This document shows, one piece after another, positions 26,054-30,725 of a DNA stretch of 64,000 nucleotides; positions within the stretch are counted from its first letter, which is position 1, and each line of letters begins with the position of its first letter. The DNA is from Sedimentitalea arenosa (lineage in GTDB: Bacteria; Pseudomonadota; Alphaproteobacteria; Rhodobacterales; Rhodobacteraceae): assembly GCF_016428585.1 (NCBI RefSeq), contig NZ_JAELVR010000004.1:1-64000 (forward strand), written 5' to 3'. The notes under the pieces were generated by a model, which saw only the letters and a list, made by a program, of their open reading frames with translations, did not search any database and was not told the DNA's origin. Both the position numbers and the translations under genes were made by a program.

Positions 26054-26632
26054 TCACGGGCGGTGATTGATCCGCCCGATCCGCCAGCCCGCGGTCCCCG
26101 CCCGCATGTCGGTGACCGAGAGGTTGTCGATGCGGTGGCCGAAGGTGTCATAGGCGGCGAGGCCCGTGGCGCGTTGCAGCTGGGTCAGGATCACGCCGAA
26201 ATGGGCCACGACGATCACGTGCCGCCCGTCATGGGCGCGGATCAGCCGATCGATGGCGGCGTCGACGCGGGCGCGCACCTCGTTCCAGCTTTCGCCGCCG
26301 GGCGGACGGATATCGCCGGGAGTTTCCCAGTAGGCGCGGATCAGTGTCGGATCTTCCGCCTCGATCTCGGCGGCGCGGCGCAGTTCCCAGGCCCCGAAAT
26401 TGATCTCGCGCAGGTCGGGATCATGCGGCAAGCGTTCGCGGCTGTCCTGGATCGCGTCGGCGGTGTGCGCGGCGCGGGACAGGTCCGAGGAGATCACCAC
26501 CGCGTCCGGCGGGAGATGTCCCGACAGGCGGCGCAACGTTTCCGTGTCGCTGAGATCGGCAGGCAGGTCGGACCAGCCGACCATCGATTTCGCATGAGTC
26601 GGGCCATGCCGGACGAGGTGCAGCGTGGTCAC
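26054..26632 (-). CDS. Histidine phosphatase, CobC/alpha-ribazole phosphatase-like
   Basis: This 192-residue protein starts MTTLHLVRHGPTHAKSMVGW with the RHG catalytic motif at residues 8-10. A second catalytic His is in VIVVAHFGVILTQL and the REINFGAWE segment provides the Glu. Its start overlaps the cobU stop by 4 nt, so it probably dephosphorylates alpha-ribazole phosphate or cobalamin phosphate in the nucleotide loop pathway. A broader phosphoglycerate mutase-like role is possible. Confidence 0.8.
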   Translation of the reverse strand: MTTLHLVRHGPTHAKSMVGWSDLPADLSDTETLRRLSGHLPPDAVVISSDLSRAAHTADAIQDSRERLPHDPDLREINFGAWELRRAAEIEAEDPTLIRAYWETPGDIRPPGGESWNEVRARVDAAIDRLIRAHDGRHVIVVAHFGVILTQLQRATGLAAYDTFGHRIDNLSVTDMRAGTAGWRIGRINHRP

Positions 26633-27156
26633 AGCGGGGCGCCCTTGAGGATCAGCGGCAGGCCGGCGACCACCTGGATCACGCGGTCGGACCGGGCGGC
26701 GAGGGCGATGTTGAGTCGCCCCTGCGCGTCGCGGAACCGCCGTGCCAGCGCATTGTCCGGTACGATTCCCTGCCCGACTTCATTGCTGACGACGACCAGT
26801 TCGGCGGCACAGCCCGCGAGCGCGGCCAGAAACTTGTCCTGGGCGGTGGCAAGATCGTCCTCGGCGAGCATCCGGTTGCTGAGCCACATGGTCGCGCAAT
26901 CCAGCAGGCAGACCTGATCGGTGTGCAAGCCGGACAGGGCCGGCGCGACATCGTGCGGGGCCTCGAGCGTCGTCCAGTCGGGGCCGCGCTGATCGCGGTG
27001 GCGGTCGACCTTGGCGCGCATCTCGTCATCGAACGCCTGCGCGGTGGCGAGGTAGACCCTCGGTTTTCCTGTCGCCATCACCAGCGTCTCGGCAAAGGCC
27101 GATTTGCCGGATGCCGCCCCGCCGAGCACCAGGGTCAGGGTTTGCCGCACGTGCAT
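26629..27156 (-). CDS. cobU: Adenosylcobinamide kinase / guanylyltransferase
   Basis: This 175-residue bifunctional enzyme (CobU/CobP) phosphorylates adenosylcobinamide and adds GMP in cobalamin assembly or salvage. Walker A is LVLGGAASGKSAFAE at residues 9-23, and the family motifs CLLDCATMWLSNRML and VVSNEVGQGIVPDNALAR are present. The promoter region is shared with the divergent rpoH gene. The following phosphatase gene overlaps it. Confidence 0.95.
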   Translation of the reverse strand: MHVRQTLTLVLGGAASGKSAFAETLVMATGKPRVYLATAQAFDDEMRAKVDRHRDQRGPDWTTLEAPHDVAPALSGLHTDQVCLLDCATMWLSNRMLAEDDLATAQDKFLAALAGCAAELVVVSNEVGQGIVPDNALARRFRDAQGRLNIALAARSDRVIQVVAGLPLILKGAPL

Positions 27157-27168
27157 TTGACCTTTGAG

Positions 27169-27198
27169 TGATCCAGTTTCCGTTAACCTGCGTAAACG
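27169..27198 (+). promoter_or_regulatory. RpoE (ECF) type promoter upstream of rpoH2
   Basis: TGATCC at 27169-27174 and TAAACG at 27193-27198 are separated by 18 nt. TGATCC is the -35 element I know for the singlet-oxygen sigma factor RpoE of Rhodobacter sphaeroides, where rpoHII is a direct target. A TTGACC at 27157 could be a second, housekeeping -35 but has no good -10. Confidence 0.5.
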
Positions 27199-27253
27199 TC
27201 ACAAAAGCGCAAGACAAGACGCGCTTCCGAATGACAACGACTGGGGGTACCTG

Positions 27254-28132
27254 ATGGCACTGGATGCGTCTCGAGAAGTCTCATTGTCACGCAAGGCGAT
27301 GAAGGCCGAATTGCTGGATGCGGAGACCGAGTTGAGGCTGGCCTACGCTTGGCGGGACCAGCGCGACGAGGCGGCCCTGCATCGCCTGATCACCGCATAC
27401 ATGCGACTGGCGATCTCGATGGCGGCCAAGTTCCGCCGGTACGGTGCTCCGATGAACGACCTCGTGCAGGAGGCCGGGCTCGGGCTGATGAAGGCCGCGG
27501 ACAAGTTCGACCCGGATCGCGGTGTGCGGTTCTCGACCTACGCGGTCTGGTGGATCAAGGCGTCGATCCAGGATTACGTGATGCGCAACTGGTCGATGGT
27601 GCGCACCGGGTCAACCTCGTCCCAGAAATCGCTGTTCTTCAACATGCGCCGGGTGCAGGCGCGGCTGGAGCGTGAGGCGGCCGCGCGGGGCGACAAGTTG
27701 GACCGGCACCAGTTGCACCAGATGATCTCGACCGAGATCGGCGTGCCGCTGCGGGATGTCGAAATGATGGAAGGTCGCCTGTCGGGGTCGGATTTCTCGC
27801 TCAACGCGACCCAATCGGTCGAGGACGAGGGCCGCGAGTGGATCGATGCGCTGGAAGACGACAGCGCGCAGGCCGCAGAACTGGTCGAAGACACTCATGA
27901 CCGCGAGCAGCTGCGCGAATGGCTGCTGGCCGCGATGCAGACGCTGAGCGATCGCGAGCGATTCATCGTGCGCGAGCGCAAGCTGCGCGACCAGGCGCGC
28001 ACGCTGGAGAGCCTCGGCGACGAGCTGGGCCTGTCCAAGGAGCGGGTGCGCCAGCTCGAAGCGGCGGCGTTCCAGAAGATGCGCAAGAGTCTTGAAAGCC
28101 AGTCGCGCGAAGTGCAACACTTTCTCGCATGA
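27254..28132 (+). CDS. rpoH: RNA polymerase sigma-32 factor, RpoH2 type
   Basis: This 292-residue sigma factor has region 2 with LVQEAGLGLMKAADKFDPDR and FSTYAVWWIKASIQDYVMRN, the RpoH box-like STSSQKSLFFNMRR stretch, and a C-terminal region 4 with LGLSKERVRQLEAAAFQKMR. It resembles the second RpoH of Rhodobacterales, which runs the photo-oxidative stress response. I chose ATG 27254 (MALDASREVSLSRKAMKAEL), with GGGGGT upstream; the frame is open to 27164 but that part covers the promoter. The stop overlaps the next gene by 4 nt. Confidence 0.93.
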   Translation: MALDASREVSLSRKAMKAELLDAETELRLAYAWRDQRDEAALHRLITAYMRLAISMAAKFRRYGAPMNDLVQEAGLGLMKAADKFDPDRGVRFSTYAVWWIKASIQDYVMRNWSMVRTGSTSSQKSLFFNMRRVQARLEREAAARGDKLDRHQLHQMISTEIGVPLRDVEMMEGRLSGSDFSLNATQSVEDEGREWIDALEDDSAQAAELVEDTHDREQLREWLLAAMQTLSDRERFIVRERKLRDQARTLESLGDELGLSKERVRQLEAAAFQKMRKSLESQSREVQHFLA

Positions 28133-28947
28133 GATCCTTTCGCAACATCCTGATCGCCCTTGTGGCATGTGTGGCCGCCCCGAGTTGGGCGGCCTCTTTG
28201 TCTGATGACCTGTTGGAGCGGATGTCAGAGGCGGACGTGGTCCTGCTGGGTGAAATCCACGACAACCCGGCCCATCACGAGACCCAACGCGCGGCACTGG
28301 CCGCGTTGCAGCCCAAGGCGGTGGTCTGGGAGATGCTGACCGGCGTGCAGGCCGGCCGGATCGGCGCGCAACTGATCAACCGTCCCGAGGAAATGGCGCG
28401 CATTCTGGACTGGGCCGAATCCGGCTGGCCGGCCTTCGCCATGTATTACCCGCTGTTCAAGGCGGTGCCGGGCGCCCGGATCTATGGCGGCGCGGTCCCG
28501 CGCGAGGCGGCGATGGCGGCGATGCAGGCGGGCGAAGCGGTGGCCTTCGGAGCGGATGCGGCGCGCTACGGGCTGACCGTCGATCTGCCGCCCGCGGAGA
28601 TGGCGGAACGGGTCGAGCTGCAATTCGCCGCCCATTGCGAGGCGATCCCGCGCGACCGCTTGCCGGCCATGGTCGGGATTCAGCGCCTGCGCGACGCGGT
28701 TCTGGCGCGCGAGGTGCTGATGGCGCTGGAAGAAACCGGCGGGCCGGTGGCGGTGATCACCGGCAACGGTCATGCGCGCCGGGATTGGGGCATCCCGGTC
28801 TATCTCGACCGGGTGCGTCCGGGCCTTGCCGTCTTCGCGCTCGGCCAATCCGAGAACGGTGGCATCGACGGGGTGTTCGACGCGGTGCTGGACAGCCCGC
28901 CGGTCGAGCGCGACGATCCCTGCCTCGCCTTCACGCGCAGCAACTGA
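28129..28947 (+). CDS. ChaN-like haem-binding uptake protein
   Basis: This 272-residue protein has an N-terminal signal with a possible lipobox (LVAC at residues 11-14) or a cleavage after SWA. It has VVLLGEIHDNPAHHETQ at about 37-53, the signature of the ChaN/PF04187 family, and a second motif VITGNGHARRDWGIPVYL. The His in GEIHDNPAHH are candidates for haem binding. The start overlaps the rpoH stop by 4 nt, so it is translated with the sigma factor and may belong to the same stress response. Confidence 0.85.
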   Translation: MRSFRNILIALVACVAAPSWAASLSDDLLERMSEADVVLLGEIHDNPAHHETQRAALAALQPKAVVWEMLTGVQAGRIGAQLINRPEEMARILDWAESGWPAFAMYYPLFKAVPGARIYGGAVPREAAMAAMQAGEAVAFGADAARYGLTVDLPPAEMAERVELQFAAHCEAIPRDRLPAMVGIQRLRDAVLAREVLMALEETGGPVAVITGNGHARRDWGIPVYLDRVRPGLAVFALGQSENGGIDGVFDAVLDSPPVERDDPCLAFTRSN

Positions 28948-29023: not shown

Positions 29024-30220
29024 ATGCTGGCTTCAAAACGCATTCTGCTGATCATCGGCGGCGGCATCGCCGCCTACAAGACGCTTGAACTGATCCGGCG
29101 GTTGAAGGACGCGGGGGCCGCCGTGACGCCGGTTCTGACCCGCGCCGGGGAGGAATTCGTCACGCCGCTTTCGGTGGCGGGGGTGGCCGGTCACAAGGTG
29201 TATCGCGACCTGTTCGATTTGGGCGACGAGGCCGAGATGGGCCATATCCAGCTGTCGCGCAGCGCCGATCTGGTGGTGGTGGCCCCGGCGACCGCAGACC
29301 TGATGGCGAAGATGGCGACGGGGCTGGCGAACGATCTGGCCTCGACGCTGCTGCTGGCCACCGACACGCCGGTGCTGATCGCGCCGGCGATGAACGTGCG
29401 GATGTGGGAGCACCCGGCGACACGGCGCAACCTCGACCGCTTGCGCGGGGACGGCGTGCGGGTGATCGGGCCGAACGAGGGATCGATGGCCTGTGGCGAG
29501 TTCGGCCCCGGCCGCATGGCCGAACCGGCGGAGATCCTGGCCGCGATCGACGCGGGGCTGTCGGACGGGCCGCTGGCGGGGCGGCGGGTGCTGGTGACCT
29601 CGGGGCCGACGCACGAGCCGATCGACCCGGTGCGCTACATCGCCAACCGCTCCTCGGGCGCGCAGGGCACCGCGATCGCGCGGGCGCTCGCGGCGTTGGG
29701 GGCGGAGGTGATCTTCGTGACCGGTCCGGCCTCGGTGCCGCCGCCCGAGGGGGTGGAGATCGTGCCGGTGCAGACCGCGCAGGAGATGGCCGACGCGGTG
29801 CAGGCGGCGCTGCCGGTCGACGCGGCGGTGTTCGCGGCGGCGGTGGCCGACTGGCGCATGGCGCAGGCTTCTGAGCGCAAGCTGAAGAAGACGCGCGACG
29901 GGATGCCGGTGCTCAGGTTCGCCGAGAACCCGGATATCCTGGCGGGCGTGGCGCAGATGGAGCAGGGCCGCCCGGCGCTTGTCATCGGATTCGCCGCCGA
30001 GACCGACGACGTGGTGGCGCATGCCACCGCGAAACGGGTGCGCAAGGGGTGCGACTGGATCGTCGCCAACGATGTCAGCCCGGCGACCGGGATCATGGGC
30101 GGGAGCGAGAACGCCGTGGTTCTGATCTCGGCGGATGGTGCTGAGACCTGGCCGCGCATGGGCAAGGATGCGGTGGCGCGACAGTTGGCCGAGCGGATCG
30201 CCGATGCCTTGAGCGGGTGA
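29024..30220 (+). CDS. coaBC: CoaBC: phosphopantothenoylcysteine decarboxylase/synthetase
   Basis: This 398-residue bifunctional enzyme makes 4'-phosphopantetheine for coenzyme A. The N-terminal flavoprotein half (CoaC) has [19 protein letters not shown], the active-site His in [33 protein letters not shown] and the Cys of [12 protein letters not shown]. The CoaB half follows from about residue 185 with [19 protein letters not shown] and the nucleotide-binding Lys region. ATG 29024 has a GGAGA site 9 nt upstream. Dut follows. Confidence 0.97.
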
Positions 30221-30235: not shown

Positions 30236-30257
30236 GAGTATTTTCGCAAAGATGAAG
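30236..30257 (+). repeat. Intergenic motif GAGTATTTTCGCAAAGATGAAG-like element
   Basis: This 22-bp stretch after a small CTTCGG hairpin matches the tail of the repeat at 6251-6313 in about 16 of 22 positions. It includes an ATG (30252), which argues against that codon as the dut start. Confidence 0.45.
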
Positions 30258-30269
30258 CAGGTTCAGGAC

Positions 30270-30725
30270 ATGGTTTCGATCCGGGTGACACGTGAGGAGG
30301 GGGCGGATGAGAGCGTCGCCCTGCCCAGCTATGAGACCGCCGGCGCGGCGGGCGCGGACCTGCGTGCCAACTTCGCCGATCGCGGTGTGATGCGGCTGGC
30401 CGCGGGGGAACGGGCGCTGGTGCCGACCGGGCTGCGGCTGGAGATTCCGGCGGGCTACGAGGCGCAGATCCGGCCGAGATCCGGGCTGGCGCTGAAGCAC
30501 GGGATCACCTTGCCGAACGCGCCCGGCACCATCGACAGCGACTATCGCGGGCCGCTGGGGGTGATCCTGATGAACGCCGGGGAGGCGCCGTTCGAGGTGC
30601 GTCATGGCGACAGGATCGCGCAGATCGTGATCGCCCCGGTGGTGCAGGCGCGGTTCGACCTCGTGGCGGAGCTGGGCGGTTCGGCGCGGGGCGCCGGCGG
30701 GTTCGGATCGACGGGACGGTTCTGA
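30270..30725 (+). CDS. dut: dUTPase
   Basis: This 151-residue enzyme hydrolyses dUTP to dUMP, keeping uracil out of DNA and feeding dTMP synthesis. All five motifs are visible: [24 protein letters not shown], the catalytic Asp region [24 protein letters not shown], and the C-terminal [11 protein letters not shown] arm. I chose ATG 30270 ([11 protein letters not shown]) because the upstream ATG 30252 lies in a repeated intergenic motif and homologues start near here. The TGA shares a base with the moeB ATG. Confidence 0.95.

Follow-up and report, generated by a model that had tools for sequence, protein, structure and literature searches.

The window (the whole stretch of 64,000 nt from Sedimentitalea arenosa that was analysed) contains a gene for the alternative sigma factor RpoHII, followed by an overlapping gene of the ChaN family and preceded by a promoter of the RpoE type. 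The features of the locus are as follows.

26054..26632, minus strand: histidine phosphatase gene after cobU (family scan), which we take to be cobC
26629..27156, minus strand: cobU, divergent from rpoH2 (family scan)
27169..27194, plus strand: ECF11/RpoE-type promoter TGATCC-N15-GCGTA (sequence, conservation and published form)
27243..27247, plus strand: GGGGG, likely ribosome-binding site of rpoH2, judged from the sequence
27254..28132, plus strand: rpoH2 (RpoHII), 292 aa (family model NF005693, 450 bits, cut-off 315)
28129..28132, plus strand: ATGA stop/start overlap of rpoH2 and chaN (sequence; conserved in relatives)
28129..28947, plus strand: chaN, ChaN-family secreted protein, 272 aa (PF04187, 124.9 bits; TIKI/Ere fold)
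29024..30220, plus strand: presumably coaBC (phosphopantothenoylcysteine decarboxylase/synthetase), 76 bp 3′ of chaN
30252..30725, plus strand: next gene after coaBC, taken by resemblance to be dut (dUTPase)

The sigma factor was assigned to RpoHII on its score above the NF005693 cut-off and its separation from an RpoH1-like paralogue (G000:C12:147483), to which it is 44% identical; its score with the general RpoH model, rpoH_proteo, is under that model's threshold. We place its start at ATG 27254 and its stop codon at 28130-28132. The longest ORF would begin at TTG 27164; this start was dropped because it overlaps the promoter and because the protein begins with MAL in most relatives. The primer used to clone R. 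sphaeroides RpoHII from its start codes for MALDG (PMC3441632, accessible part).

The earlier note had described a TGATCC box, an 18-nt spacer and TAAA ahead of rpoH2, and these elements are indeed present in the window (TGATCC at 27169-27174 and TAAA at 27193-27196). The −10 element is better described as GCGTA at 27190-27194, giving a promoter TGATCC-N15-GCGTA with its 3′ edge 59 nt from the rpoH2 ATG. The Pos19 promoter of R. sphaeroides, which depends on RpoE, is printed as TGATCC(N15)GCGTA (PMC5036791, accessible part); the window promoter is identical to it and is classified here as ECF11. The transcription start of rpoH2 would lie near 27201-27205. On the opposite strand, the start codon of cobU is 12 bp from the −35 box (the gap is window 27157-27168), so that binding of RpoE could repress cobU.

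The earlier note had also suggested looking for chrR-rpoE elsewhere in the genome, and the pair was found: ChrR is encoded at G000:C2:114523 (212.6 bits, cut-off 124.5), with rpoE directly upstream and preceded by its own TGATCC-N15-GCGTA. In the 3.98-Mb genome the pattern TGATCC-N15-17-CGTA is matched at 18 places, and at none when it is read backwards. Eight of the 18 have a 16-nt spacing before CGTA. Downstream of seven of these eight, the longest ORFs that start within 250 nt are those for rpoE, rpoH2, folE2, two fasciclins, a glutathione peroxidase-like protein and a secreted protein; the eighth (L260) has only a doubtful ORF after it. The other ten matches, with other spacings, are mostly followed by no clear gene. 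Both folE2 and a fasciclin gene appear in a table of the R. sphaeroides RpoE regulon (PMC7074977, accessible part).

Two further observations concern this genome. At L257 (G000:C2:142956) a perfect RpoE-type site precedes an ORF for a small secreted-looking protein, for which no Pfam match was found at E 0.001. Reaction-centre genes (Photo_RC) are present in the genome of the window and absent from all four genus relatives.

Conservation of the promoter was assessed at 132 rpoH2 loci: 80 named loci, 48 from an order sample and four genus loci. The named loci are the 80 top matches among at least 556 and therefore lean toward close relatives; the order sample comprises 61 genomes, 48 of them with rpoH2 above the family cut-off; the genus loci were fetched via their chaN. 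The set includes the window locus and the identical proteins L046/L107, L047/L113 and L127/L128. With up to one mismatch allowed, 87 loci have a TGATCC-type site, 38 a TGAACC-type site and seven neither. Exact TGATCC matches were found at 80 of the 132 loci and exact TGAACC matches at 34, while upstream regions with shuffled letters gave exact TGATCC in 0 of 2640 cases (a control on the TGATCC form alone). The box TCATCC precedes rpoH2 in L074, L127 and L128.

The comparison with ChrR covered the 48 order-sample genomes with rpoH2 and 39 of 40 named genomes (all but L090); L047 and L113 are apparently one genome counted twice. ChrR was scored present in all 48 TGATCC-type genomes versus 29 of the 39 others (Fisher p 1.6e-4, kinship ignored), and none of the ten genomes scored as ChrR-less has TGATCC before rpoH2. 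The ChrR of G064 (L172, L197), whose rpoH2 has a TGATCC site, is divergent and under the cut-off (74 bits); the genome was counted as positive because an RpoE relative adjoins ChrR. A kinship-aware pair test yielded four supported pairs only; on average, 1.4 of these had ChrR changing in the same direction, and none had it changing in the opposite one. Among the five order-sample genomes with rpoH2 and without ChrR, TGAACC occurs in two, GGAACC-N16-CGTA and GCAACC-N16-CGTT in one each, and the fifth shows no clear site. G082, an uncultured Sulfitobacter MAG and the genome of L085, has reaction-centre genes and a TGAACC-type rpoH2; no ChrR above the cut-off was found in this possibly incomplete assembly.

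Could the TGATCC box be a chance match, or a site for a different sigma factor? Matches to so short a motif do occur with no gene after them, and most of the ten genome matches with other spacings resemble background. Against this, the spacing before rpoH2 is exact, the exact sites in the compared loci all lie at −57 to −139 from rpoH2 (92 of 112 at −72 to −87), and the site co-occurs with ChrR; we regard such a reading as highly improbable. The RpoE-type promoter that the earlier note saw as driving rpoH2 is backed by the exact published form, by conservation and by the co-occurrence with ChrR, and the predicted control of rpoH2 by RpoE is well supported.

The RpoE-to-RpoHII cascade is itself established knowledge, and its description in the earlier note as the singlet oxygen cascade of phototrophic relatives agrees with published work (PMC6852236, PMC3441632 and PMC7074977, in their accessible parts). 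With the RpoE-ChrR-RpoHII system of R. sphaeroides the window genome shares the promoter form, the target, a chrR-rpoE pair with its own site and the sites at folE2 and fasciclin genes. No essential difference was seen; here an overlapping chaN follows rpoH2, and many relatives have no chaN.

In the relatives, a second form of the promoter recurs. TGAACC is found upstream of rpoH2 in L023, L024, L039-L041, L043, L044, L058, L165, L170, L171, L173-L174 and other loci, and in L175 the −35 box of rpoH2 is GGAACC. The TGATCC and TGAACC forms occupy the same position, mostly with the same GCGTA −10 element. The site of rpoE itself is TGATCC in 48 of the 49 genomes examined and TGAACC in none; G021, G028 and G041 have TGATCC-N16-CGTA there, and in G064 neither box was found before rpoE. 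In the order sample, the eight TGAACC-type genomes that have ChrR all carry TGATCC at rpoE.

Sites of the form GGAAC[CA]-N15/16-CGTT, which we take to be the EcfG consensus form, were found near nepR in 13 of 20 loci. The TGAACC class is marked by GAACC, as in this form, and by an A as the second base after the box (31 of 36 members, versus 33 of 79 in the TGATCC class; uncorrected p 6e-6); the variant looks like a cross between the RpoE box and that of EcfG. At least ten changes of promoter type are needed on the RpoH2 tree, and supported branches force at least three for the TGAACC group.

From these data we suggest, as a tentative reading that we hold somewhat doubtful, that a single −35 base change from TGATCC to TGAACC (and then to GGAACC) has rewired rpoH2 several times in Rhodobacteraceae: RpoHII would pass to EcfG or be shared with it, the rpoE promoter would stay TGATCC, and the window would represent the RpoE-only form. 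If this is true, the input of RpoHII moves from the singlet-oxygen sensor RpoE-ChrR to the general-stress factor EcfG, or is shared by the two.

Two candidate separators of the promoter types were tried in the order sample and rejected. Reaction-centre genes are present in 24 of 34 TGATCC-type, five of 11 TGAACC-type and none of three unclassed genomes; being split across promoter types, they make phototrophy no clean separator. For the presence of EcfG the difference is weak (NepR in 11 of 11 TGAACC-type versus 24 of 34 TGATCC-type genomes, one-sided p 0.04, uncorrected).

In rhizobia rpoH2 is under EcfG (RpoE2). Sigma-24 promoter signals have been reported before rpoH2 in most Rhizobiales (PMC4843759, accessible part). 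The two systems are alike in placing rpoH2 under an ECF sigma factor; the window, however, uses an ECF11 box, and a likeness to the EcfG −35 element is seen only in those related loci that have TGAACC or GGAACC. No prior report of the TGAACC variant was found in the literature searched, with subscription papers mostly outside its coverage, and the one-base variant in the relatives looks new.

The second gene of the locus, chaN, was said in the earlier note to be made together with rpoH2. Among the 61 order-sample genomes, 48 have rpoH2, 34 a PF04187 protein and 29 both; in 28 of these 29, chaN lies on the same strand no more than 300 bp after rpoH2. The exception is G061, whose chaN belongs to another clade and adjoins an ABM-domain gene. 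Of the 80 named loci, 63 have chaN after rpoH2 and 79 have coaBC downstream; over 67 loci, five of which have no rpoH2, the median gap between chaN and coaBC is 79 bp. The rpoH2 stop is overlapped by an ATGA or GTGA in 75 of the 87 loci where chaN is adjacent versus 16 of 45 others, and of 64 pairs tested, 60 have this start codon in the frame of chaN. Conservation of the pair, which the earlier note had wanted checked, is borne out where chaN is present, and because the overlap is conserved, co-production is likely: chaN is probably co-produced with rpoH2, although a link of ChaN to stress is unproved. The literature searched, which covered few subscription papers, contained no evident prior report of the pairing.

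A terminator-like structure (a perfect GC hairpin of eight pairs with a T-rich stretch) lies at 28173-28194, within the signal-peptide codons of chaN, and could lower read-through into chaN here; the scan for structures of this type gave three sites versus 2.1 expected. We rejected its reading as a conserved attenuator: hairpins were counted in 25 of 96 real versus 15 of 96 shuffled chaN starts, and none was found in the four genus relatives (own scan).

The alternative that chaN is a passenger of the cobU/coaBC neighbourhood, with its own function and promoter, that merely ended up after rpoH2 must be taken seriously; we put it not far short of an even chance. The presence of chaN does not correlate with that of rpoH2 (29 of 48 genomes with rpoH2, five of 13 without; Fisher p 0.21). 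In the five rpoH2-less genomes with chaN (L207, L216, L218, L222 and L225) this gene occupies the same slot between cobU and coaBC (only cobC is seen in L216), ChrR is kept in all five, and in four of them no RpoE-type site (up to one mismatch) was found in the 180 nt before chaN. Likewise, rpoH2 keeps its promoter in loci without chaN: of 37 such loci, 21 are of the TGATCC type and 14 of the TGAACC type. On the other side stands the conserved in-frame ATGA/GTGA overlap, which suggests selection for coupled translation, or else mere compaction. Also, in the fifth of these genomes, G005 (L218), TCATCC-N16-CGTA occurs at −135 of chaN, beside the cobU start and placed like the rpoH2 promoter; a site as good was found in six of 500 shuffles of the region. 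It may be a remnant, a working or a kept RpoE site, and is the one result favouring RpoE control of chaN itself. As a separate observation, the arrangement of the rpoH2-less loci would fit an excision of rpoH2 with its promoter from the slot, or their insertion into it.

The ChaN product was placed in its family by PF04187 (124.9 bits, cut-off 27.7) and by fold. Its AlphaFold2 model has a mean pLDDT of 95.2. VIA-align matched it best to C. jejuni ChaN (2g5g; Z 22.2, 224 aligned residues, rmsd 2.8), then to HopBA1 (Z 14.1) and EreC (Z 13.1); RRSP and PMT came up as further fold relatives, and of these matches only the common fold is used here. A lipoprotein signal was considered and rejected: the window protein has LVAC, but a lipobox is present in only eight of 96 relatives.

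In an alignment of 52 relatives the invariant residues include E42, H44, D45, H50, E68, H169, C170, H215, R217 and C265. Four of these (E42, H44, E68 and H215, each in 52 of 52) are candidates, judged by motif and order, for a two-His/two-Glu set. Such a set is catalytic in Ere and TIKI enzymes (PMC7979712 and PMC6254334, accessible parts). The matching set in the same order suggests that ChaN is at least as likely a hydrolase as a haem carrier. With the erythromycin esterase/TIKI hydrolases EreC, BcR135 and RRSP it has in common the core fold and, putatively, an invariant 2His/2Glu-like set; it differs from EreC in size (about 250 mature residues versus about 400), and its activity is predicted at most.

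A specific link to haem uptake, which the earlier note drew from a haem-binding uptake protein fused into the operon by overlap, is not supported. 'Haem-binding uptake' is the Pfam family name of PF04187, chaN is uncorrelated with rpoH2, and the haem-linked ChaN of a relative is of a separate clade. That relative, G001 (L017), has a second ChaN whose neighbours are a FecCD permease, a presumably IsdG-like ABM gene and the ATPase of a haem ABC transporter (NF010068, 321 bits, cut-off 261). This second ChaN and the ChaN of G061 (L224) form the separate clade of two rows (SH-aLRT 99), which is likely the true haem-linked ChaN.

A role of the window ChaN as a periplasmic carrier of haem or some other tetrapyrrole under photo-oxidative stress is a reading we consider unlikely. 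It can point to the fold match with C. jejuni ChaN (Z 22.2), to the Pfam name and to the paralogue adjoining a haem ABC transporter in one relative. With C. jejuni ChaN the protein shares the Pfam family, the fold and the GExHD, E and H motifs, but 2g5g, the sole solved relative that a sequence-profile search brought up, is remote, at 20–21% identity, and the lipobox is confined to the few relatives noted above. No haem uptake genes were found beside the window chaN, whose identified neighbours are cobU, coaBC and dut; the same order recurs in the named loci (six named genes were scored, and others may lie between or beyond them). Moreover, Y106 is the sole invariant Tyr, other Tyr columns reaching at most 29 of 52, and the haem-linked type is confined to its two-row clade.

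Taken as a whole, the RpoE to rpoH2-chaN scheme is in our judgement the best explanation of the locus, and we hold it with good confidence; it is drawn from the promoter match, its conservation, the co-occurrence with ChrR, the gene overlap and the predicted fold. In this scheme, singlet oxygen or an organic peroxide would lead to degradation of ChrR and free RpoE (ECF11), which with RNA polymerase would use the promoter at 27169-27194 to produce the rpoH2 transcript. RpoHII would then drive the wider oxidative-stress regulon. The transcript would extend by read-through into chaN, which would be translated by ribosomes ending rpoH2 at the ATGA overlap, presumably through coupling. It may also reach coaBC-dut; since these genes are present without rpoH2 or chaN ahead of them, they must be expressed otherwise as well. 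The ChaN-like protein would be exported and act most likely as a periplasmic TIKI/Ere-type hydrolase or a ligand-binding protein, its chemistry being predicted from the motifs and fold.

For this organism, comparative genomics indicates a standard singlet-oxygen cascade in a phototroph. The secreted TIKI/Ere-like protein, probably produced with RpoHII, adds a new player that can be tested. The switch between TGATCC and TGAACC in the relatives is what might surprise a specialist: with variants at 38 of 132 loci, and with the ChrR-less genomes having no TGATCC before rpoH2, it becomes directly testable how a stress cascade comes to switch sensors.
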